Assembly (NCBI RefSeq): GCF_036711975.1
Contig: NC_091972.1
Span: 5,709,001 to 5,773,000 of the forward strand
Length of the DNA stretch: 64,000 nucleotides
Source of the DNA: Onthophagus taurus
Lineage: Eukaryota > Arthropoda > Insecta > Coleoptera > Scarabaeidae
Reading direction: 5' to 3'
Program-made: the position numbers and the translations under genes
Shown: positions 19,457-56,800 of the stretch, piece after piece
How positions within the stretch are numbered: the first letter of the stretch is position 1
Layout: each line of letters begins with the position of its first letter
Notes under the pieces: generated by a model
Seen by the model: only the letters and a program-made list of their open reading frames with translations
Told to the model about the DNA's origin: nothing
Databases searched by the model: none

Positions 19457-22400
19457 ATGTATTTGAAGTTAATAATTACCGTTGTATTAATATTAGTGAA
19501 TTTCCAGTATTGTTCTTGTTCCCTTAATAAAAGTGGAAGTTATCTTGAAATGGAAAAGATCGATTTTAAAGATAGAAATCAAAGGTTTATCCATTTTAAT
19601 ACAGATGACAGCGGCGTTATACAAGTAAGAATTTTTTAAAGCTTTATTTTATTATTTTTAATTATTTTTTTTGTGAAATAGTGTAATCTTAAATTTCTTT
19701 TAGGTGGAATTGGCTTTTAATGTTCCTTTTATAAACATACCAACAAAACAAGCATTTAATATGACCAAAGGTGCAATGGCAAGTGTGAATGTAGGAAGTA
19801 TTGTGTTGGCAGGAGTTGTTGTTGCGGGAGCGGGCTTTGTATTACCTGCTTTATATCATTTTATATCAGCAAAAGGATCTTTATCATCAAAAGCAGATCG
19901 GAGTATGTTTTTTTAACTTTTTCAAAGCTCATAAATAGACTCATAACAGATAGATATTTTAATCCCGATAAGAAATAAAAAATAAAAACGATCACAAACA
20001 TACACAAAGACAAAACTACAAAACAACAAAACTACAAAAAGGTTACAAATCGATTGATATTTAATCGTGTGATATTCTACTCGAATAGAAAATCTACTTC
20101 TTGCCTTTCTTTCCTTTTTTGCCGCCTTTACCGCCCTTTCCTTTACCTTTACCCTTTCCTCCACCACCTTCAGGCTTATCCGATGGAATGTCTTTAGGAT
20201 CATATTGCGTATCTTGATGAACCACATTTTTCTTTTTCCTAAACCTTTCTGGATGGATAAGTCCAGCGGGAGGAGTAAATTCAATATCCAATTCGCTATC
20301 TGAGGAACTCTTTTCATCCTCACTACAGTAACAGAATTCATCTTCCATGCCCGGTTCAATCTGTATGGGCGGTTTATTTTTGGTTATTTTAAATTGCATC
20401 GGTGTACAATCCATGTATGGACTTTCATTTTCTTCCAGTTTGTATGGATCTTTCAAAGGATTCATTGTTATGAAGTAACAACCATCTTTTTTCTTTATTT
20501 GAAGCGTAGGTTTAGGAGGAACTGAGACGTCCGAGTCAGATTCATAAACTCCAAAAGCGTTCTTACGCTTTTTCTTTGGTTTGCTCGGAGTTGCTTGAAC
20601 TAAAGCTTTAAGTCCTAACGCGGCTCGATGCCGTTCTATCAATTCAAGCATAGTATGTGTCAATGCTCCGGGTTTCCACCCTCTTCTAGGCTAAAAATAA
20701 AATTGTTGTTCAAAATTAAAATTATTGTTACATTTTGTTACTACCTTTAACCTTCCAGGTTCTCTTATATTCCATAACCATCCCATGTTGTGTGGAACGT
20801 TTAATGTTGGTGTGACGCAATATCGATGACCAATTTTTACGCCAGGATAATTATCCCCACTATCTAAAGCAAATTTGTTTTTCCTCTTGCCTTGTTTTTT
20901 TGGTTTTGGTCTGTCGGCATCACCTCCTGGTCTTTTATCCGGTTTGTCTTTTGATTTTGCTTTAGCTTTTGTTGATGGACCGTTACCGCCACCGGCGCCT
21001 CCACCGGCGCCACCACCGGTGCCTCCACCGGTGCCACCACCGGTGCCACCACCTGCTTTACTAGGAGTATCCTTTTTTCCACTTACAGCATCCTTTTTAT
21101 TAGGATTGCATGTGTTACATTCGAGATTTCCACTCTTAGCCAAACACGTAGTAGGGACGCACGGTTCGACTTTATCGAGTTTGACTTCTTCAGGAGGTTT
21201 ATTGTCAACTGGAGCATCTTGTCCTCCTGAGCACTCCATGCACTCCAAACTTCCACCTGTCTTCATACACGAAAATGGCGTGCACGGTTCAATTTTATCT
21301 AATTTTCCAGTTACTAATTCTCTGGGTATATAACAAAAATGAAGTGTAGTTCTTGAAAAATATGAAAAGAACCTATGATTTACCCTTCTCCTATTATATT
21401 TCCTGAATTTGGTGATTTTCCACCAGCACACGGACATGGTTCTGGTTGAGTTGGTTTCCTATAAAAATTATTACATTTCTCAGATCTCGTTTCATAAAAC
21501 CTCTTTAACATCTTAACAATTCATAAAATCCCCATTACAAAATCTTCCTTGGTAGGATTTGAGAATTGAAAGAAGTCAATGATGAACGTGCAAAACAAAA
21601 AGATTTAAAGTAGTTTTATGAGACTGGGTCATAATAGAATTATTTACGTTTCTGGTGGTGTTTTTACTCCTGAACCGTTTGCACAAGGACAACTTTCCAC
21701 TTCTTTAAATTGAGGACTTGGTGGTTTTACACTAAACGGACACGAGGGATCATCGCAAGGACCAGATTCTTTCGAACCTCCTGATGGTGATTTAAATAAT
21801 GGACATCTTGGATCGTTACAAACTTCTTTATCTTGTTGTAGTATTTTTTCGTTAATTGGACAATTAGGATCGGTACACGGAGGAATTGCGTTAAATGGAC
21901 AATCAGGTATTTGACAAGGTATTGGCGGGCCAAAAGGACACCCTGGTACATCGCAAGGAGGTGGCATCGCATAGGGACACATGGGAGCTTTGCACGGAGC
22001 TGATACAGGTTTAAACATTTTATCGGCAAAATCTTGACCTTGTTTAATGGGACAATTCGGATTTTTACAACGATCTTTAGGTAATGGGTCGGGACAATCC
22101 CAATGAATTGGAGGGAGAGGATCCTCTACTTTATAGGGACAAGTTGGGGCACCACAATTTGGAGGCAATTTACTCATTTGAATTAGCGCTTCGTCTACGT
22201 CTTCATCACTAATTCCTAATCTTCTTTTTGTGTAAGGACATGTCGGTTCCCCACAAGCGGGGGCAACTTGTTTTCGTTTTACCTCTGGTTCGACAGGTTG
22301 TTGCATAAGTCTGGAATACGGACATGTGTTGGTACCACACGAAGAGATACTTAGGGCGTCTTTAGCTTTTTTGGCAGCTAGAATTTCCGCTGGGATTTGG

Positions 22401-24816
22401 GGGCAATTATCTGGGTCGTTGGGACAAAATCCTTTGCATGATTCATCGATGACGTTCTGGGCGAATGGACATGTTGCTTGACCGCATGGACCTAACGCTT
22501 TTTTGTATGAATCCACTAATTTATCGAAATTATCCATCAGGCTTTTGCATGCTTGTAGCGGTGATGATTGTTTATCATCCATTGGAGCACCCCCTTTTAG
22601 ACGTAATATATTTTTAGTTATACTTTCACTTGACAAATCTTGTACGCTTTTTTTAAATTTTTTAATCTTTTTCTTCAAGTTTTTCATTATTTTTGGTTCC
22701 TTTACGTTATAAATTCTCATTAATTCCTTTTCTTTTTCATCGGTTAATCCTCCTCCTCTTAATCTATTTTGGTTTAGCTTTTTGAGACATACATTTTCAT
22801 TATTGACATTTTTAGCTTCCTTAGAGAATCCACCACCTCTTAAACGTAACACATCTTTATTTACAGTATCACTGGATGAACTAACACTTTTCTTCGGGTG
22901 TTTTGATTCCTTTTTGCTTTTCTTTGTACCATCACCTTTCTTGCCGACGTTAACGTTTGATAATTCGTTTTCTTTATTACCTTCTGGTATTGCACCGCCT
23001 CTTAACCTAATTACTTTTTTCTGACACGAACAATAAGATCCCCCAGAGTCAACACTGCTAGTTTTACTTTTCGATTTTTTCGTTTTCCTTGGTTCGTAAT
23101 CTTGATCCGGCTGTTTAGGTTTTCGATACAAACCAAACGGGCCGTAATTCTCCATGGTTCCATTAGCGTGACTTAATCCGTAAGTTGTTGGAGGAACTAC
23201 ATGGCCGTACACAGTTCCTAAGCCTTGACCTGTGGCTAAAGGGCCAATTCCGTATTCTTTGAAGAGTTTCGCAGCAGGACAGTCTTTGTCGTTGCAAAGC
23301 ATGTTGTTGATGTTCTCGATAGTCAAATCTTCATCTGGAATTGGTTCTAGCCCGTTTAGTCCCGATGTGCTTGATCCTAAAATATCCGCTAACGTAATAA
23401 ATTTGTTATTATCCATGCGGAACATTAAAGACATCTGGTCGTCAGCAACAGTTTTATTGAAACGTTGAGTAATGATTTGTTCTAGATTGAAAGCTGATGG
23501 CATTACGGAACCGGGTACTTGTCTCCCTTGTTCCGCGAAGAATGTTTTGAAAAGTTTATCATCTAATTCGGTCGGATTTAAAGTAGGTCCTATTGGTATG
23601 TTGTCCATTGAGGTTCCCATTCCATATCTTTGACATTGAAATGTTGTAGCTGCATTAGGGCTTTTGTACAAATACACAGATTTCATTTGGCCGTCTTTTG
23701 GATCTTTTTGTTTTACGATTTGATACTGCGTTGTGATACTGTTTCCAAAACATGATAATCTAATAAAAACATCAATTGTGCCTGCATCGGCATCGGCTGG
23801 ATCTTTCATTACATAAGTGTCTCTTGAACTAACTGGAGTTATATAACCAGTATTATCATTGCAACTATCTACCATTTGAACGAAATCGGATTGCCAATTT
23901 ACTAAAGCAGTTCCAATAGGTGAAGGAGTATCTTTTTTGAATAGTGTTAATTCTAAAGGATATGCCGCAAATGATTTTAAGATCTTATCAACGGTACATG
24001 AAAACAAATACGATTTTCCTGATGCAAATTCCATTTCTAACGACTTGGAACCTTAAAAAATAAATTTAAAAGAGTTTCAAAAAAAATAAATTTGTTTTAC
24101 TTTCATCTGATCCTCCCAAACCATCGTTACGTATTTCTAAGCTGGTAATGTTACTCCACGCAGCAACGATATTAATCTGTTTCTTTTGAGGAAGATTGTC
24201 GGCATTGGCGAAGTAGATCGAGTCTACGAAAATTTCGACGAGAAACAACTGTTCCATATTCTTACCCACTTTTACTTACAAAAAAAAACATGCCCAGATT
24301 GGTGCTGTAATTTAGATATATTAGGGCCGACCCCGTTTTTCACAGACGAAATTTTGCGCAACCTCGACGTTGCATGTTTTTTATTTTGACAGTAGTGAAA
24401 TAAATATTTATTAATAATCTTTTGATTTGTTTCGTTGACATGGCTGCCCTTTATTATTAACATAATTTTTTTTAGGTGGTGATTTTGGAAATGCGATTTG
24501 GAATCGATTGAATTCAAGGATGCAAGATGTTTTAGAAGAAAACGATTTCGATAAATCGGCTTGTATTCAAAGAGTCGCTTGTTGGATTGTGAAAAATTCT
24601 TCGACAAAAGTTTCTAAGGGAATCGGGAACAGTGGCGATAAAATTATCGATGGTATATCATCAAGTGGATTTTTTAAAGATATGATACAAGATACTTTTT
24701 TGCATCATCCCGTTAAATTGGGATTAAAACGGGGGAGTTGTGCGAAAGAATACGGAAGATGTAAATTTAATCAAGAATATTTACAAGAAATTTTTATGAA
24801 GGTTGTACATATTTAG
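19457..24816 (+). CDS. Secreted/membrane orphan protein, DM4/DM12-like
   Basis: Three exons, 19457-19624, 19704-19902 and 24476-24816, encode 235 residues. A signal peptide (about residues 1-22, hydrophobic up to YCSCS) is followed by an acidic spacer. Next comes a Gly/Val-rich hydrophobic segment ending GAGFVLPALYHF, probably membrane-spanning. The C-terminal part has the cysteine layout C-x3-R-x2-C ... GSC-x4-YGRC, which resembles the insect DM4/DM12 family of unknown function. The similarity is by pattern only. Intron 2 is 4.6 kb and encloses a complete gene on the opposite strand. Phases close at both junctions, and exon 3 has no plausible alternative upstream partner. Confidence 0.75.
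20094..24257 (-). CDS. Large cysteine-rich orphan protein nested in an intron
   Basis: Five exons in transcription order: 24101-24257, 21648-24051, 21384-21458, 20745-21321 and 20094-20690, encoding 1269 residues. Residues 1 to about 200 look like a C2-type beta sandwich followed by a globular region. Four LRLRGG-like motifs occur near residues 398, 452, 479 and 534 in a lysine/serine-rich linker. Roughly twelve C-x4-CP(Y/F) repeats follow (about residues 550-830). Then come two EPC...C...LEC..C repeats, a Gly-rich tract, a segment with GHRYCVTP and MGWLWN, an RRGWKPGAL motif, and a Lys/Gly tail. It resembles insect-specific proteins annotated only as domains of unknown function, often testis-expressed; that is inference. 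The start is the first ATG in a short exon; an upstream GTG in frame is not used. The whole gene lies in intron 2 of the opposite-strand gene. Confidence 0.85.
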
Positions 24817-25779: not shown

Positions 25780-28390
25780 TTGAAATGTCGCACCAAAGCT
25801 TTACATCTGAATGTGATGTTGTTTGTTGCGATAGGTTATATTTAGTAGTTTGTGTCTTTGAGTATTGTTTGTTTAGTAAATGTGTTAATTCTGTATCGTT
25901 AAATTGCGCGTTTTTTAAGGTTTGTGTGTCAGGGTAAATTGATGTCCATGTAAAAAATGTTTAAAGAATTTGATACTAGTGTAAATTGCTAACAATTCTC
26001 TATCAAAAGTTGAATAATTTATTTGGCTTGAAGATAATTTTTGAGAAAAAAATGCTAAAGGTTGTGTTTTATTGTTTATAGTCTGTGATAAAACTGCTCC
26101 TATACCTATACTTGAGGCGTCAGTCGTCAGTGAAAGAGTTGCTCGTGGTGATGGGTGTGCAAGAGTGACGGATTTTGAAAAAAGTTCTTTGGCTGTAGTG
26201 AAAGAAATGTCGTGATGGTGTGTCCAAGAAGTGATTGATTTAAGTTTTTGTGAATAAAGTGTTTTTGATAAATGATGTAAAGGAGCTAAAATGTTTGAGA
26301 TGTTTGGTAAAAATCTGTGATAAAAATTTATCATTCCTAAGAATCGCTGTAATTGTTTTAGTGTGGTTGGTTTTGGAAATTCAGTTATGGCATTAACCTT
26401 AGATTGCGAAGGGCGAACGCCTTCAGCAGAAATTTGATGACTTAGGAAATTTAAATCTGTAACTCCAAAAACACATTTTGTTGGTTGTATATTAATATTA
26501 CAAGAGGTTAACCTCTGAAACAATTGTTGTAAATGAAGATAATGTTCTTCTTCATTGCGACTGGCTACTAGAATATCATCTAGATATACGAATAGGAAAT
26601 CTAAGCCATATAGAACTTCGTTTATGAACCTTTGAAAGGTTTGTGCCGCATTACGTAAACCGAAAGGCATTCTCGTGAATTCGAACAGACCAAACGGTGT
26701 AGTGATAGCCGTTTTAGGAATATCGTCTTCTTCTACAGGAATTTGGTGATAAGCTCGTACCAGATCTAATTTTGAAAAAAATTTGCAATTGTGTAAATGT
26801 AAGTTAAAATCTTTAATGTGCGGAAGAGGATAACGATCTGGAACTGTGATGTTGTTGAGTTGTCGGTAGTCTCCACATGGTCTCCAATCGTTGGAATCTT
26901 TCTTAGGAACCATATGAAGAGGCGACGCTGTAGAAGAAGAAGACAGATTCCTAATGCCACCATTTGTTCGAATTCTTTCTTTGCGATGTTGTGTTTGTGC
27001 ACGTCTAAACGTCGGGGACGACAAAACGGTAGGTGTGAGTTGGTAACAATTCTGTGTCGAGTGTTATGTCCAACTGGTTTTGTAAAGTCCGGTGTAGACG
27101 TTAATTTTGGAAATTTTTTTAAGAGTGTTGTATATTTGGTTTCAAAAGAAAAAATTTTGGGAGTTGGAATAGTATTTTTGACAATGGAACCAATTGAAAA
27201 CAAATTGGTTTTCGAATCTACCAATCGCTTCTTTTTTATATCCACCAAGATACCAAATGCATGAAGGAAATCCGCACCAATGATTGGTTTACTAACATTA
27301 GCTATAGTAAATACGAATGGGAAATTCCTTCTTAGATTTAATGAAATTGTAAGCATTTTTTTACCGTATGTAGTAATTGTAGTACCATTAGCGGCCGAAA
27401 GGTTTGAGTTGGTATCTTGGTTACGTTTCGGATATAATTTGTGAGGTAGAACCGAAATGTCAGCTCCAGTGTCAATTAAAAAATTTAGGTTATTTTGATT
27501 GTCAAAAATGAAAAGTCGCGAACTGACAGAATTTACCGTAAATTGAGGTTGACTTTTTGTCAAAATTTTGAATTTGGAAAAATTTTGTTTTTCTTTTGAA
27601 ACCTTTATTAGTTTTTTGATGTCGATGGAAAATTTTTGTTTTTGTCGGTGAAGGAATTATAAAATTTGCAATATGTTCCTCCACATTTAACCGCGTTGTC
27701 TCCAAATTTACGGTGATACCAACAAATAGTCGAATAACTCGTTGAATTAGATCTATTCCGCGAGTGACGTGACGAAGAACGATGTCTATCTCGAGAATTG
27801 TGAAAACAATTACAATTACAATTCTTCAACGTATTTGTTGGTATGTTTTGAAATTGTGTAGTCAAAGAATTTATTTGATTTTCCAAATTTTTTGTCCTGT
27901 TGTCCTGTTGTTGTTGTTGTTGTGTAATGGTAGTCACTAGTGCTTGACACGTTAACGTCAGATTTTGGATTGTTGTTAGTAATTCGTCGTGTGGTGGTGT
28001 TTTTGTGGTGCGATGTTTTTGAACTTCCGAGAGGTGTGTTGAGGTCGACGTCAAATTCATTGATTTCCACACCTTGTCGGCAATGGAAAGAATGTCCACA
28101 ACGTCCTCTTTGCCAGAAGCGAGGAGTGCAACCGAAACAACACGAGGTAGTCTCCTTTGCCACAATTTTAATAGTAAATTTGGACTAACCACCTGAGAAC
28201 CACCAACTGTGGTCAACATCGCTCGATAAAAATCTGACGGTTTTTGATCTCCCATTTGCGAACCTAACAGAACATCGTCCAGCCGTTTTTCTTCACTCAA
28301 TGATAACCTGTCGATTAACAATTTTTTGAGTGAAGAATATGGATTTATGTCTGGAGGGTTCTGTATGAGATCTACCACGGTAGAGATGAT
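25780..28390 (-). mobile_element. Ty3/gypsy LTR-retrotransposon relic
   Basis: On the minus strand, in order: a gag-like region (about 27608-28378), a retropepsin region with the active-site motif DTGADISVLP (about 27100-27560), and reverse transcriptase plus the start of RNase H (about 25915-27024) with [11 protein letters not shown] and the RNase H motif LTTDASSIG. Integrase and both long terminal repeats are absent, so the element is a fragment. The reading frames are long with only about one or two breaks, which suggests a fairly young insertion. Each border meets a hairpin-family cluster. Confidence 0.9.
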
Positions 28391-28394
28391 CTCA

Positions 28395-28795
28395 TCGTCT
28401 AGTGTTAGTTCTAATTTTACACTAGCACTGTTACTAGAACTAACACTATACCTAGAACTAGAATCATTCAGGTTTAGCTGTCTTGAGAGACGTGCGGCTA
28501 AACCCGAATGTTTCTAGTCCTAGGTGTGGTGTTAATTCTAATTTTACACTAACATTGTTATTAGAACTAACACTATACCTTGGACTAGAATCATTTTGGT
28601 GTAGCCGTCCTGAGAGACGTGCGGCTAAAATCAAATGTTTCTAGTTCTAGGTGTAGTGTTAGTTCTAGTTTTATACTAACACTATATCTAGAACTAGAAT
28701 CATTCGGGTTTAGCCGTCTTAAGAGACTTGCGGCTAAACCCGAATGTTTCTAGTTCTAGGTGTAGTGTTAGTTCTAGTTTTAATTGTGATACGGT
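28395..28795. repeat. Hairpin-family cluster, three tandem copies
   Basis: Three copies in tandem, each about 115-120 bp. Each has arms CTAGAACTAGAAT...GGGTTTAGCCG and CGGCTAAACCCGAATGTTTC around loops such as TCTTGAGAGACGTG. The cluster runs into the right border of the gypsy relic. Confidence 0.88.
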
Positions 28796-39737: not shown

Positions 39738-42266
39738 TTAACTTTTTTTCCCAAAAAAATTAAAATCTTGTCCTTTTCCTCGTCGAACTTCTTCAAATTT
39801 ATTCATTATTTCATCAATATTCTTTGGGCAATATTTTTGATCCATTGTGAAAAATTTATCATCACCTTTTACATCAACTTTTGAATGAGTGTTTGGGTAT
39901 AAAACGGTTGTTGACACAGGAGGTGTTTGTCGAAGAGTTGGAGAACTAGTATTCTCTAATAACTGACATGAAGGTGTTAAATTTTCTTCGGATAGTAAAG
40001 ATTTGATTTGATATTCGTTGGATATGGTGGAGCTGTAAGCTGGTAAGTTATTTAAAATAAAATTTTTCTGACTAATATATTTCTGTCGGAAATATTCGCT
40101 GGCATTCATATCAAAATCGGGTTCTTTAAATTTAATGCTGGAAAAATCTAAGTCTTTGATTTTGTTATAATCAATAGGGGGGGAATAACCTATTTGATTT
40201 TCACACTTTTCCGTTTTAGTTCGTTCACTGAAATGTTTGTATTCAGGATTTTGATATAAATCGTGAGATTTTGACGAGTTATTTTTGAACGTATCACAAT
40301 TTGTCATTTTTTTCAAAGGTGTCTTTCCACTAAAACTATTTTCGTTCTTTTCAGCTTTCTTATTAACAATTTTTTTCCCAAACGATTTTTTATTAGTACT
40401 AATTGGAATTGAACCAATTTTTGTTGTATTCGTTGAATTTTCTACAGACGAGGACTGTTTTGAAGGTTTTTTTGTTTTCGACACAATCGATTTTGTAATT
40501 GCTTTCCGATTCATTTGACATTTTTTAGTATCTTCTTGAGTGGGAAGATTTAAATCTTGTTTTGAAGACAAATCATCTTTACATACAAATTGACTATTTC
40601 CTATGCACATATCGTCATCGTGTTTCTTTAAAATTGCGTCACAAATTGCCGAAATAAGCGTGTTATGTTCACCGTACGAATGATATAATTTCTTGGATAT
40701 GTTCGTCTTGAAAATGTCATCATTTAGATTTAACGGTTTAGGAAGGTTCTTTTTTGGTAATCTTGGAGATAAATTAACTTGAGTTGTACTCAAATTGTAT
40801 TGTTTTCCGCTTAAAGGACTTGAAAATAATCCATCGTCGATAAAGAAATTTTTTGGTTTTCTTCTTGGGGTCATACTTTGTAAGAAATCATTTGTCCAAT
40901 CGATCGTTGTTTTGTAAATCGGAACATCTCCGATATTTTTCTTGTTTTTATCACAAGTTAAATCGTATTTACCATCCCATAAGTCTCGCATTACTTCGGG
41001 CATTTTCCTCGATAAATTTGGATCATCATAACTCGTTGCTTTATTTTCTACTATTGGTATGCACTGTATTGAATTAGTTTTTACCATTTGAGTTTTTGTC
41101 GATTTTTCTTGTTCAGCTTCTTTAAATTCTTTTTTGGGACTTTTTTCGTCGAAATATTCAGCTCGAGGACAAGGTCCTTTTACATTTACGCATTTATCAC
41201 ATATTGTACATTTTCCCGCATAAGACCCACGATTTGCTGGAATCGACTCAGTCGTGTAGCGTTTCGATTTAATTGCGCAGCATTTACAACATTTACAACA
41301 TCTTTTTGGAAAATCTGTTTGTGTGAACCTTTCTTTTATGTTTTGAATTGAAGTTTGCGTGTTTCTATGAACATCGATGACTTCATGTTGTTCAGTACAA
41401 CATTTACATTCGCAATAATCAACATCACACACGCAACAACAGTCTTTTTCTGGACTACATTCTGCGTAATGACAAGGTGAGTATCCGCGGAATGCCGTTT
41501 CTTTATAATTTTCTGGAGTTTGAGTTTCCTTAAATCGCGAATACACTTTTGGGTCATCAGAAATTGTATCTTTCGTCGAATAGATATCTTCGGAAATACT
41601 GGAATTTAATGATGGTCTATTACATTTGTTATGAGTTCTATTGCAATGATTTTTTGTGTGGTGATGTTTCTTCTTGGGAACATATCGTGCAAATGGGACT
41701 GGGTATGGATAAACAAATTGATTTGCACAGCTTTGAATGTATTCATTATATGTTGGTCTTTTTTGTTTAAATCCGAATATATTTTTTGTTGTTGATTTCA
41801 CCGCATTCCATGCACGCTTTGTGTAAGAACCTTTTGAATCCTCGCATTTCTTGTAAATCCGTCCGCACTCGCACGGTTCATAATACTCCGGTTGAATACA
41901 AACATGAGGATGTTGCCCGTTTAAAGTTCTTTTTTGTGGATAAGGATGTTGATAAGATTGGTTATCGGTGGTTTCGGAAGAAACCGCTTTTTGATTTTTA
42001 ACATGATCGATGTTAACCATCAATTTCGGTTTGCAATCCACTTCGCCACAAGGAACATATTTGTACGAACAAGTAATCGGTCGATAATCAAAATTATCCT
42101 CTCTTTTGTGCTGAGTGCTTTTAGCATGATACTTTTTATCTTTATTCTTTTTGATTTTTGTGAAGACTTCAAATGGTTTTTCAGCTGGAATTCGACGACA
42201 ATCTCTCGGTTCAAAGCACACACAAGTATTGTACTCGTTATCGTAATACAACTTTCTTTTAATCAT
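39738..42266 (-). CDS. Single-exon cysteine-rich orphan protein, 842 residues
   Basis: One uninterrupted frame from MIKRKLYYDNEYN to NFFGKKS. The N-terminal half is rich in Cys and aromatic residues, with CVCFEPRDCRR, a dense cluster ECSPEKDCCCVCDVDYC and EC-K-CC around residues 270-290, and a CCKCCKCC run near residue 325 followed by a C-x2-C-x2-C pattern. The second half is Lys/Ser/Asn-rich and probably disordered, ending in a short helix with NIDEIMNKFEEVRRG. There is no signal peptide or membrane segment. I recognise no named family; such lineage-specific Cys-rich proteins in insects are often sperm-tail or testis proteins, which is inference. The length and intact frame make it a real gene. 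The start is the first ATG after an in-frame stop. Confidence 0.85.
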   Translation of the reverse strand: MIKRKLYYDNEYNTCVCFEPRDCRRIPAEKPFEVFTKIKKNKDKKYHAKSTQHKREDNFDYRPITCSYKYVPCGEVDCKPKLMVNIDHVKNQKAVSSETTDNQSYQHPYPQKRTLNGQHPHVCIQPEYYEPCECGRIYKKCEDSKGSYTKRAWNAVKSTTKNIFGFKQKRPTYNEYIQSCANQFVYPYPVPFARYVPKKKHHHTKNHCNRTHNKCNRPSLNSSISEDIYSTKDTISDDPKVYSRFKETQTPENYKETAFRGYSPCHYAECSPEKDCCCVCDVDYCECKCCTEQHEVIDVHRNTQTSIQNIKERFTQTDFPKRCCKCCKCCAIKSKRYTTESIPANRGSYAGKCTICDKCVNVKGPCPRAEYFDEKSPKKEFKEAEQEKSTKTQMVKTNSIQCIPIVENKATSYDDPNLSRKMPEVMRDLWDGKYDLTCDKNKKNIGDVPIYKTTIDWTNDFLQSMTPRRKPKNFFIDDGLFSSPLSGKQYNLSTTQVNLSPRLPKKNLPKPLNLNDDIFKTNISKKLYHSYGEHNTLISAICDAILKKHDDDMCIGNSQFVCKDDLSSKQDLNLPTQEDTKKCQMNRKAITKSIVSKTKKPSKQSSSVENSTNTTKIGSIPISTNKKSFGKKIVNKKAEKNENSFSGKTPLKKMTNCDTFKNNSSKSHDLYQNPEYKHFSERTKTEKCENQIGYSPPIDYNKIKDLDFSSIKFKEPDFDMNASEYFRQKYISQKNFILNNLPAYSSTISNEYQIKSLLSEENLTPSCQLLENTSSPTLRQTPPVSTTVLYPNTHSKVDVKGDDKFFTMDQKYCPKNIDEIMNKFEEVRRGKGQDFNFFGKKS

Positions 42267-42574
42267 ACTTTAATTTTAATATATTCATCCCAAGATTTAA
42301 CTTTATTTCACCTTCGAAACGTGTCCAACGTCAAATCAACGTGGTTATTGACATTTCAGGTTTGACGACCTTTCGTTTCACCTTTATTTCCGTTTAATTT
42401 ACTTTGAAATATAAAAAAAAAGTAGAAATATCACCGTGCGTTGAGCAATCGCGCTAATGCGGTTCTATTTATAATATAGAAAGAGTGCGTTTCAACGTTG
42501 TTAGTTAATCTTGGAAAAATCCTCAATATGCAGGCGGAACCGGGATACATTTATTAGGAAATTAAAAAGGCAGG
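42267..42574. other. Upstream region of the 842-residue gene
   Basis: About 300 bases that must include the promoter of the minus-strand gene. I cannot identify a specific element. Confidence 0.35.
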
Positions 42575-50840: not shown

Positions 50841-53800
50841 ATGCTTCTACGGTTGACATTTCTTGGATTGTTGGTAATTACATCAATTACAACAGAAAAA
50901 GGTAAGTTCCCCGCAACCAAATCGAATTACCATTTATTGCAATGATTTTCTCATGCATTTACTAAGAAAAGATGTATAATCGTTTTTCACAAAAGGTAAT
51001 CATTAAATTGTAAGACCAGTTAAGTAATTGCATACTCAACAAGTGTACTTAGAAAGTGTAACAAACTGCACGTGATTTCAAAATACCTAACGCCAATTAA
51101 GTGAAGCACCCGGCGTGAAAAAAAAAATTTGGTCAACGTCCTCTTTATTAAAATTTCATAACAACTTTTTTTTTATTAATAGTTCTAGACGATTTGGAAA
51201 ATCAATGTCCTGAGATAAAAGAATGCCCGTTTAATGCGGATCCGTGCATTGATGATCACGATTGCAACCCAACAAGTTCTTGTTGCGATAGTCCTTGTGG
51301 AAAAATTTGCACCAAACAGCTTTATACAGGTTGGTAATTCAAAATTTATGTATCGAAACGTATCAATTATGAGTCACGTCCTATATAGATTAGAACCGTA
51401 AAAAAATATATTCAACGACCTTCAATGCGAATTCCTAACGTGTTACGGTCGTATAACAAAAAAACAAAACATTTTACGCTTGAACAGAATTCAAGGCTGT
51501 TTTTTAAACAAATTTCTTTAATCAGGATGTCAAACATTGAGACGAGCGGAAGCGAGACGAGCGAAAGCTTTAGGCGTCGACGAAAAGAAGGTCAGAATGC
51601 CTAAATGCGCTAAAGATGGTGCTTTTGAACCGGTTCAATGCAATAACGAAATCGTTAGTTCTTGTTGGTGTGTTGATGAAGCCGGATTTGAACTACCAGG
51701 AACTAGAGCTCCCGCTGCGGCTTTAGTTAATTGCACTGGTAATAAAACAAATTTGTTTTAAAATGTATCTTAAATTATTTTTTTAGCACCTAAATTATGT
51801 GCGGCTCATACGTGCAGAATGTTTTGTCCACACGGTTTTGCTTTAACAGATGAAGGTTGTCCGTTATGTAGATGTCGAGATCCTTGTGAAGATATAAAAT
51901 GTCCGGATTCGTTGGCTTGTCATTTAGAAGATTTAACATGTGCGGATCCACCATGTCCACCGATACCGACGTGTAAGTGATTTTCTTTCCAAGAATCGAA
52001 AGCCAGCGAAACTTTGTATTGAAGTGGCCACTTTCACTTTGAGTCGTTAGATTCCAAATAATTCACGCGATTCTCCGTCAAATACCACGGGAGTAGCCGT
52101 TCCCACGCAAAGGTCACGGCTTCGGGAGATGTTCTTCTCTTTGCGATTCATCTTGTGCAATCGGAATCTCCCTCGTTTCGGTGTTGCAATAGGTTAAGAA
52201 CGTGAAACGCCTATAATATCAACAATAGAGCTGTTGCAATCACGTATTTTCTAATTGATTCTTTCGCATTGGCATTCGATCTATGTACAAAAAAAAATGT
52301 GTCACGTCCCAAGGACATGAATTTTTTTGTCTTTGACGGTGCGTTTTTAATTTCTTTGCAGGTAAAAGAGGTCGTAGTTTAGAAAATATATGTCCCGTGG
52401 GCGATCCGTTAAGAATAAGCGAAACAGTTCGTCCATTTTTATGTGGAAATGATGCTAGTAAACCGAGTTGTCCTCCATTGTACCAATGTTTGGTTCAACC
52501 AGGTAAAGTGCACTTTCTAAATTCACTCTTTAAATGCTAATTTGTCACCACGCCTCTACCTTTTCGTACCTAATCAATAAATCAGCTTTGTCATGAATTT
52601 GCATCACAGATGCACCTTCTATAGTTGAATTCTTCAGCTAACTCACGAGTCACTCAAACGTGACAATCATTTCTACTTGACCTTTCAGGAAATGAATACG
52701 GCGTGTGCTGCCCGGCTTCTTTACAAATAAGAAAGACGGGCACGTGTCCGCTGAAGAACGAAGAAAGTTTAGATTGCGGTACGATGTGTACCCACGATTT
52801 AGAATGTCCTTCCATCCAGAAATGTTGCGATTCCGAACAATGCGGAACATCTTGCGTACATCCCAAAAACGCTACAGAATGTTTTCATCAAAAATCTGTA
52901 TCGGAATTATTAACGATTAATGAAAATTCTAAAGGATACGTTCCACAATGCACCGTTGATGGACAATTCGAACCAAAACAGTGTAGTAGAAATGGATTAG
53001 TTTGTTGGTGTGTTGATAGAATGGGACGAAAATTACGAGGATCAATGGGTCCAGCTGATATGGCTAATTGTTCTTTAACGGATGGTAAAAACTAATAATA
53101 GAATTCAGTTTTTTTAATTAATTATTGTTTTCAAAATACAGCTAGGAGTCAATCTTTAGGAAGAAGCATCAATAATAATGGTGTTCAATGTGAACGACAT
53201 GAATGTGCAGCAATTTGCGAATACGGTTTCAAATTAGATGAAGATGGTTGCCCAACTTGTAAATGTGACGATCCTTGTGATGGGTACACATGTCCTGAAG
53301 ATGAAGAATGCGTAACTGTTAAAGACTCAACTTGCGCCGATATATTTTGCCCTACTCTACCATTCTGTCGACCCAAAGCCATTTATACAAATCCATGTTT
53401 AGATGGAACACCATTAACTGACGAATCTAGCGGCGCACCAATCGCTTGTGCATTCGAAGAAGGTGATGGAACTCTTTGTCCTGGTACACATAATTGTACC
53501 GCGGTACCAGGATCAACCCAAGCAGTTTGTTGCCCGATTGTATCCCATGAAAATATTCAAGAAGATGTAGAAAGAGTCCAAACCAGTATGACTATCAAAT
53601 CACAACAATTTAATTAAAATTAATTAATTTTTATTTTAGTGTGTTATTATTTACATAGTTTTTCTGAAAGCATGGAAGGAACGAGGGATGGTATGACCAT
53701 TGCGATTCCTCCACCATCTTGTGACAAAAACGGCAATTTCTTGATGACTCAATGCCACGATGGGTACTGCTGGTGCGTTGATCAATTTGGTACCGAAATT

Positions 53801-56800
53801 CCTCGTACGAAAGGATTTGGAAACGCAACAAGGAATTGTGAAGAATTAAGACGAACTTCCGAATGCTTAGATTTAACTTGTCGAATGGGATGCGACTATG
53901 GGTTCATTTTAGAAGAAGACACAGGATGTCCTAGTTGCCAATGTCGAGATCCTTGCTCCAGCGTGAATTGCGGCGAAAACGAACAATGTCAATTAGTCGA
54001 AGTTAGCTGCAAAGACCATTATTGCGCACCAGTTCCAGCTTGTAACTAATAAATATCTTTTTTCTTTTTAAATTCAATTAATAAATTTTCCATCTTTCTA
54101 GGTCTCCCAAAAAAAGTGGGGCAATGCCCGTATATAGTTCCCGCGACGTCTTCTTCTTGCGAATTTGAGTGCAGTTCGGATTTAGCTTGCAACGGAACTA
54201 TGAGATGTTGTTCTAATGGTTGTGGCACTCAATGTACCGAACCGCTATTATTAACAGCTTGCCAACACGAAAAATTATTAGCCACACATCACGCGCACGA
54301 AGCTGCATTACCAGGAAACATGTTCTACATCCCAAGATGTAAAGAAGATGGAAGTTTCGAATCAAAACAATGTCACCCTCTAAAAAGACAATGTTGGTGC
54401 GTCGATTCACGAGGATTCGAAATCTCCCAAACACGAACAGACATGAAACAACCACTAAATTGCAACAAAACCGAAAATTCCCGGTGTCCGTTATACAAAT
54501 GCGCCGAAGATTGTAAACACGGTTTCGAAATTGATCAAAAAGGATGTCGTACTTGTAAATGTTCAGATCCTTGCACTAAAATTTCATGTAGAGAAGACGG
54601 GGAAATTTGTAGATTAGTTGACGTTGAATGTGTTGATGGACCATGTCCTCCAATAGCTATGTGTCTTCCGAAAAAAGAAAATCCATGTCAATATGGAGAA
54701 CCTTTAAAATTAGGAAGTAGCGATGAAACTATATCATGCGGACCTGATTTCGAAAGTTGCCCATCTTCACATAAATGTCAATTAAGTCCTTTTGGTGAAT
54801 ATGCAGTTTGTTGTCCAAAACCAAGTAAGTCAAATTAAGAATTATTATTTAATCTATTTGAATAAACTTAGATATGTGAGGATTTTTTTGTGGTCATTAT
54901 CATCGAAAGCAACGAAGCACTCGCTTTTAATAGGGAGCTAACACTAGTACTGCCACAAGAATTAACACTAGAATTACAACTAATTACAACATTCGGGTTT
55001 AGCTGTACGTCTTCTAGTATTAGTTCTGGTGACAGTGTTAGCGTTAGTTCAAGGGATAGTGCTAGTGTTAGTTTTAGCTTTACTTGTATTCAACAAAAGG
55101 TTGTTGCATACTTTTATTGAAATAAAACGAACTAACACTAGACCTAAAACTAGAAAGTGTCGGGTTTAGCCGTGCGTCTTCAGTTCTAGTATTACATTAG
55201 CACTGTTACTAGAACTAACACTACACCTAGACCTAGAATCATTCAGGTTTAGCCGTCTTGAGAGACGTGCGGCTAAACCCGAATGATTCCAGTTCTAGGT
55301 GTAGTATTAGTTCTACTTTTACACTAACACTGTTACTAGAACTAACACTATACCTAGAACTGGAATCATTCGGGCTTAGCCGTCTTGAGAGACGTGCGGC
55401 TAAACCCCACACTTTCTAGTTCAAGTGTTAGTTCTAAAGATAATGCAAGTATTAATTCTAGTATTAGTTCAATAACAGTTATAAAGATTAATGAAAATTG
55501 CTGAACTAAACTACAACTGAAAGCATGCAAACGTTAGTTAATCAAATTAATCAATTTTAACTTATTTTCTTCTAATTTCGTAGGAGAAGTTTGTTTTGAA
55601 CCAATGGATATGGGCCAATGCGACAACGAAGAACAAATTGAGAACATCACCAGATACTTTTTCAATCGAAAATCAAATAAATGCGACTCATTCTTATACA
55701 GTGGCTGTCAAGGAAATCAAAACAATTTTGAATCTTTAAAACTGTGTAACATAGTTTGTCCCATTCTTAGTCAATGCGAGCGATTACGTGAAAAAAATCA
55801 ACGTCAATCTGAACGATACAATAAACCAACTTTCACACCTCGATGTGAAAAATCAACTGGAAGATGGGAACCGGTTCAATGTTTAGATCATGTTGGTGTA
55901 TGCTGGTGTGTTAATCCTCAAGGTGAAGCACTAAAAGGGACCGTTACACGAGGTGGTCAACCCGAATGTAACTTTAGACAAGCTCGAAACAGGATGAGAG
56001 ATCGATCTGATGTTAGTCACGAAGCTGATATTGCTTTGGAAGAAATTATGATGCAATTGAATGAATTCGAAGATGATTTTGAAGAGGAAGATCAAACTGA
56101 AGATGATACTTTAGCATGGGAGTTACCTTTAAGATCAAGATGTGAAGCTTTGGGGGCGTCTTGCGATAGCAACGGACAATTTTTGTCTAATCAATGCGAT
56201 GGGGATATGTGTTGGTGTGTAGATGAAGCTGGAAATCAATTGCCAAATACTGTTGCGTTCAAAAAAGGAGACCAACTTTGTTGTAAGTTAAATTATTTAT
56301 AAGTAAATTAAATTCTATGTTTTAAATTTTTTAGTACCAACACCAATTGAAAGTGTCGATATTATTCTTGGATTTAGAGGTGAATTCGATGATATTACAG
56401 CCATACCTGTAATAAATCAAATAACAAAAATCGTTAAAAACTTAAGAGGAGCTCCAAGCGATGATGGATTTCTTACCGATATAAACAATGATGGATTGTA
56501 TATTAAATTTTCTTTGATAGGAACTAACAAAGTCGACGTAGCTTATCGATTAGAACAAATGGTTACTCAACAAAGATTACCAGGAGTTTCTGCAGATATA
56601 ACAAGATCAAGATTCGTACATAAACTTGGAAACATTGAACCTCTAATGGCAGAAAGAATTATTTCGTTAGAACATCGCGAAATCGTATCGCAATCACCAG
56701 TTTCCTTGATTGCTCATTACCACACTGCGTTGATTGTTATAGCAGCTGGATCTGCTTTTATAATATCCGTTCTAATCTTATTGGTTATTCTTTATAGAAA

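Follow-up and report, generated by a model that had tools for sequence, protein, structure and literature searches.

Four RL[RK]GG motifs at exact 54/27/54-residue spacing in the basic linker of a beetle MAP10-family protein

Why should a protein in which no ubiquitin fold is detected carry the end of the ubiquitin tail several times over in its interior? The question is raised by a minus-strand gene in the window, by which we mean the whole 64 kb stretch of beetle DNA that was analysed. A preliminary description of this DNA had reported four ubiquitin-tail-like motifs in one protein, and this was borne out. Three exact copies of RLRGG, the pentapeptide shared with the C-terminal tail of ubiquitin, and one RLKGG lie inside 22585-23014 in a single frame, with the motif arginines at residues 401, 455, 482, and 536 of the spliced model:

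22994..23008, minus strand: motif 1, RLRGG (VI-RLRGG-A)
22832..22846, minus strand: motif 2, RLRGG (VL-RLRGG-G)
22751..22765, minus strand: motif 3, RLRGG (QN-RLRGG-G)
22589..22603, minus strand: motif 4, RLKGG (IL-RLKGG-A)

The same description had put the motifs 54, 27, and 55 residues apart; the first two steps stand and the last is really 54, giving an exact 54/27/54 arrangement (162, 81, and 162 bases). The DNA pattern MGNYTNMRNGGNGG has four matches in the window, which are the four motifs, while shuffled windows contained on average 0.39 matches to the same pattern with a maximum of 2, none of 100 reaching four. Two or more RL[RK]GG occurred in a single one of 20,000 shuffles of the 1269-residue spliced protein and in none of 20,000 shuffles of the 245-residue linker, compared with four observed in each case. 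These window and protein shuffles ruled out a chance origin of the cluster. The linker is rich in lysine (43 of its 245 residues). Literature searches, including those for LRLRGG together with MAP10 and for internal RLRGG outside ubiquitin, found no earlier report of such an array.

All four motifs are contained in a minus-strand open frame of 802 codons (window 21644-24052), around which a five-exon model encoding 1269 residues was built. Its exon joins rest on splice sites inferred from sequence alone and on an unbroken reading frame, not on transcripts:

24101..24257, minus strand: exon 1, start of MAP10_N (the match begins at spliced residue 37); splice sites read from sequence
21648..24051, minus strand: exon 2, rest of MAP10_N, the motif linker and the twelve Cx4CP repeats; 802-codon frame; PF14924 E=6e-21
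21384..21458, minus strand: exon 3, inferred splice sites, frame kept
20745..21321, minus strand: exon 4, Cys-rich and Gly-rich stretch, start of DUF4776; inferred splice sites
20094..20690, minus strand: exon 5, DUF4776 and a Lys/Gly C-terminus; PF16003 E=1.6e-28, 100.4 bits

The protein had initially been described as an orphan, a view refuted by two domains that both score above their Pfam cut-offs. MAP10_N (PF14924) occupies spliced residues 37-155 with E=6.5e-22 and 78.5 bits against a gathering cut-off of 21.5, and DUF4776 (PF16003) matches the spliced protein in two stretches with E=2.4e-34 and 119.7 bits against a cut-off of 27, the best stretch covering spliced residues 1002-1177 and starting at profile position 206. 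Splicing raised both scores, from 75.3 bits for MAP10_N and from the 100.4 bits of the last exon alone for DUF4776. DUF4776 is an insect family, and in a genome profile search both of its matches (2/2) belonged to the motif gene, with none elsewhere. The two 59-aa pieces that carry motifs 1-3 did not match this family. A genome search for DUF4788 (PF16032) gave 0 matches, its controls being equally silent; exon 2 had no match by sequence in the PDB at E up to 1 and no homologues in collections of viral and prokaryote sequence.

Twelve Cx4CP repeats, eleven of them of the form CP[YFIL], are found on the minus strand at 21719-22486 and 23273-23296 (spliced residues 575-830 and 305-312). Such repeats are reminiscent of the Cys-rich proteins found in fly sperm tails, and from family membership together with the Cys-Pro repeats we infer a role of the motif protein in sperm or cilia. 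A six-frame search of the genome detected one further MAP10_N match, at C1:34642548-34642955 within a 637-aa frame, which brings the genome total to at least two. Aligned in pieces, this paralogue and the motif-gene protein are 32% identical. No RL[RK]GG occurs in the stretch fetched around the paralogue match; the paralogue is by eye likewise Cys-Pro-rich. PMC11765705, together with the title of a 2013 paper that it cites, connects human MAP10 (MTR120/KIAA1383) with microtubule stability. The beetle protein resembles this family in its N-terminal domain, with PF14924 above the curated cut-off, and departs from it by a DUF4776 C-terminus, the Cx4CP repeats, and the RLRGG array. Literature searches returned almost nothing on this insect branch of the MAP10 family.

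How far does the likeness to ubiquitin extend beyond the pentapeptide? As first proposed, no ubiquitin fold is found ahead of the motifs: up to an E of 10, neither the protein nor the linker matched any ubiquitin family, and no beta-grasp was seen in the linker model. This AlphaFold model, built from a single sequence and of low confidence (pLDDT 53.6), contains helices and no strands. A helical stretch leads up to motif 3 and enters it, others lie in the interval to motif 4 and beyond motif 4, and the glycines fall at the breaks. A model of the N-terminal 360 residues, made from two sequences, was too poor to use (pLDDT 35.9), and a Foldseek search with it returned 148 matches, none of them at E 0.001 or better; neither model lends support to a particular fold. 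Unlike the tail of ubiquitin, the motifs are internal, and RLRGG is absent from the Lys/Gly-rich C-terminus that the gene encodes. The capture of ubiquitin DNA was rejected on two grounds: no ubiquitin-family match precedes the motifs, and their codons differ from those of the putative polyubiquitin at C7:7018906-7019605, so identified because its four matches follow one another at regular intervals of 228 bases.

Across the genome, the pattern xRL[RK]GG[AG] was not enriched, with 59 matches compared with 84 for the reversed control; by design it cannot match motif 3, with Asn before RLRGG, or polyubiquitin, with Met after it. Only nine of the 59 truly code for RL[RK]GG (6 of the 30 loci fetched and 3 of the 29 others). 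These are motifs 1, 2, and 4 of the motif gene, a ubiquitin-ribosomal protein fusion (L022) whose recovery served as a positive control, a 325-aa frame, and four frames of 11-56 aa; no gene other than the motif gene contributes more than one of these nine. The 325-aa frame (L031, G000:C5:4204090) bears a single LRLRGGG and resembles gawky/GW182. At another locus (L015), which is outside the count of nine, an RLKGG was noticed in a 21-aa frame away from the pattern match. A wider pattern gave 190 genome matches, about 100 of them among the matches listed.

The spacing of the motifs divides the linker into seven slots of 27 residues:

22523..23089, minus strand: seven 27-residue slots, A-B-A-B-B-A-B, in which the motif opens each B and A denotes the preceding Lys/Ser-rich stretch

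The A-slots are alike in register, their sum-of-pairs score being matched by 2 of 20,000 shuffles, or by 254 of 20,000 once the two motif-proximal columns are left out. Slots 2 and 5 align (equalled by 6 of 2,000 shuffles), and the other two A-slot pairs align no more closely than shuffled ones (626 and 393 of 2,000). The B-slot columns downstream of the motif scored weakly (758/20,000), and lag scores with the motifs masked were highest at lags 80 and 83; lag 54 ranked third, and the score at lag 27 was below zero. Flank scores for motif pairs 1-2, 2-3, and 3-4, inflated by overlap of the windows compared, were excluded. Taken at the level of the residues, these comparisons give moderate support for homology of the A-slots and weak support for a repeat that would extend beyond the motif.

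The copies, if copies they are, appear to be old. Among the four motifs pS is 0.67, and in the flanks 0.67 and 0.69; the first motif Gly codon differs in every copy (GGC, GGT, GGA, and GGG). Saturation of synonymous sites within the motifs thus indicates that they are not recent DNA copies, and a recent tandem duplication was rejected, as the DNA has no period of 81 or 162. The contrast in pN, 0.11 in the motifs and 0.63-0.65 in the flanks, agrees with this but is biased, the selection of motifs by their amino acids being itself in part the cause of the low value. That an exact spacing was kept through such divergence suggests a constraint on length. Origin by duplication followed by conservation through selection seems a plausible course.

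Based on these features, the reading that we favour, although tentatively and with somewhat less than even confidence, is that of a docking motif repeated on a 27-residue ruler for a repetitive cytoskeletal partner. The motif would be roughly [VI][LI]RL[RK]GG[GA], with copies spread through the basic linker of this MAP10-family member. The ruler would have been left by old internal duplications of 27 or 54 residues and kept afterwards. The partner would itself be repetitive, the first candidate being the microtubule or another axonemal lattice, and binding would be multivalent as in the repeats of tau or MAP2; the resemblance to the ubiquitin tail would be convergent. This docking interpretation is drawn from the MAP10_N and DUF4776 context, the exact 54/27/54 spacing in spite of diverged flanks, the saturated synonymous sites, and the basic linker. 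What counts against it is the motif-free MAP10_N paralogue, the weakness of the repeat beyond the motif, the lack of an 81 or 162 period in the DNA, and the lack of any match to a tubulin-binding repeat family in the linker.

For the motif linker, a microtubule is the partner that we infer. Tau and MAP2 likewise combine a basic linker with spaced repeats containing glycine runs, with a period of 31-32 residues there versus 27/54 in the beetle linker. As a matter of arithmetic and not of evidence, a length of about 8 nm, close to the repeat of the tubulin dimer, would be covered by 27 residues in extended form or by 54 in a helix. The beetle linker differs from tau and MAP2 in having no tubulin-binding Pfam match: no such repeat family was among the Pfam matches of the protein or the linker at E up to 10, a search in which the HMMER filters drop most weak matches, nor was one found with the pieces carrying motifs 1-3. 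Tau is the nearest analogue: PMC13224075 describes its repeat 1 as stretched out along protofilaments and its repeat 2 as bound at one copy for each tubulin heterodimer.

A second explanation, which we regard as rather unlikely, is that the array is the leftover of an old internal duplication without any binding role, the motif having been copied with a 54-residue unit and persisting by inertia in a low-complexity linker. The A-B layout of the slots, with the similarity of A-slots 2 and 5, is what such a history would leave, and the MAP10_N paralogue does without the motif. Inertia accounts poorly, however, for the persistence of four pentapeptides and of their exact spacing in the face of saturated synonymous sites and diverged flanks.

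The other explanations take the likeness to ubiquitin at face value, and the presence of candidate ZUFSP and VTD-like frames in the same genome makes such a tail-mimic reading testable. That the array is a ubiquitin-tail mimic cut by ZUFSP we consider a decidedly long shot. Four PF07910 matches were found in the genome, three of which are pieces of a ZUFSP gene at C5:4668474-4670694, while the fourth, on C11, resembles UFSP2. When joined, the ZUFSP core is identical to Tribolium TcZUP (PDB 7oje) at 199 of 244 residues (82%), and it keeps the GWGC stretch as well as the residues matched by offset to W443, E448, D426, and Q503. The sections of PMC8776766 available to us report that Tribolium ZUFSP cleaves RLRGG-AMC, that is, the RLRGG peptide without ubiquitin, and that most deubiquitinases require a folded modifier, for which reason most of them would ignore bare motifs. 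The same sections call the basis of the ZUFSP preference for the bare peptide not entirely clear, and the substrates they name are the AMC peptide, ubiquitin-AMC, ubiquitin chains, and probes, none with the Gly or Ala that follows GG in the beetle protein. Fruit flies are given in PMC8776766 as insects that lack ZUFSP. Cleavage by ZUFSP would also leave the exact spacing unexplained; motif 4 has a Lys at the position of ubiquitin Arg-74, and the claim of a tail mimic is further weakened by the MAP10_N paralogue without the motif.

In a broader version, a non-ubiquitin cytoskeletal protein of sperm or cilia would display a ubiquitin-tail array to tail readers, either ZUFSP or the repeated VTD-like domains, and cutting or docking at GG would control a microtubule-associated protein, the RLRGG code thus being used without ubiquitin; we hold this to be improbable. 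Least probable of all is a docking site for multi-copy, inactive tegument-type deubiquitinase (iVTD) proteins that would have shifted from ubiquitin to RLRGG peptides on a sperm protein: two frames of 915 and 790 aa, about 12 kb apart at G000:C16:1350000-1369800 (L042-L045), match Herpes_teg_N and carry repeated FDP-type strings, and the parts of PMC9741609 available to us describe probably inactive VTDs in insects, many of them multi-copy, with five Drosophila proteins being testis-specific, as well as an active VTD from a transposon, for which cleavage of RLRGG-AMC is reported, but one of the C16 copies keeps an FDPH string, and the link between these frames and the motif array is co-occurrence in one genome only. 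In the genome search the two Herpes_teg_N matches were weak, each with an E of about 0.06, and one of them passed the cut-off together with its neighbours; in the scanned C16 frames the domain reached 26.9 and 40.4 bits, against a cut-off of 25.

If ubiquitin enzymes do read the motifs, the beetle protein would supply ZUFSP with a naturally occurring peptide substrate or anchor. If the motifs are unrelated to ubiquitin, as the docking reading has it, the protein still offers an array of motifs at fixed spacing in the insect branch of the MAP10 family, together with the caution that not every RLRGG string is ubiquitin.

Several other elements were observed in the window. Directly upstream of the motif gene is a minus-strand retroelement (25915-28513), with reverse transcriptase and RNase H at 25915-27063 (PF00078, PF17919), flanked by frames that by eye are protease-like and gag-like. 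A Cys-rich open frame of 843 aa lies on the minus strand at 39738-42269 and has no Pfam match at E 0.001. On the plus strand, one frame (53102-53617) encodes antistasin and lustrin domains and another (55538-56302) a Kunitz domain with two thyroglobulin type-1 stretches; the two (53102-56302) are perhaps parts of one secreted or membrane protein.
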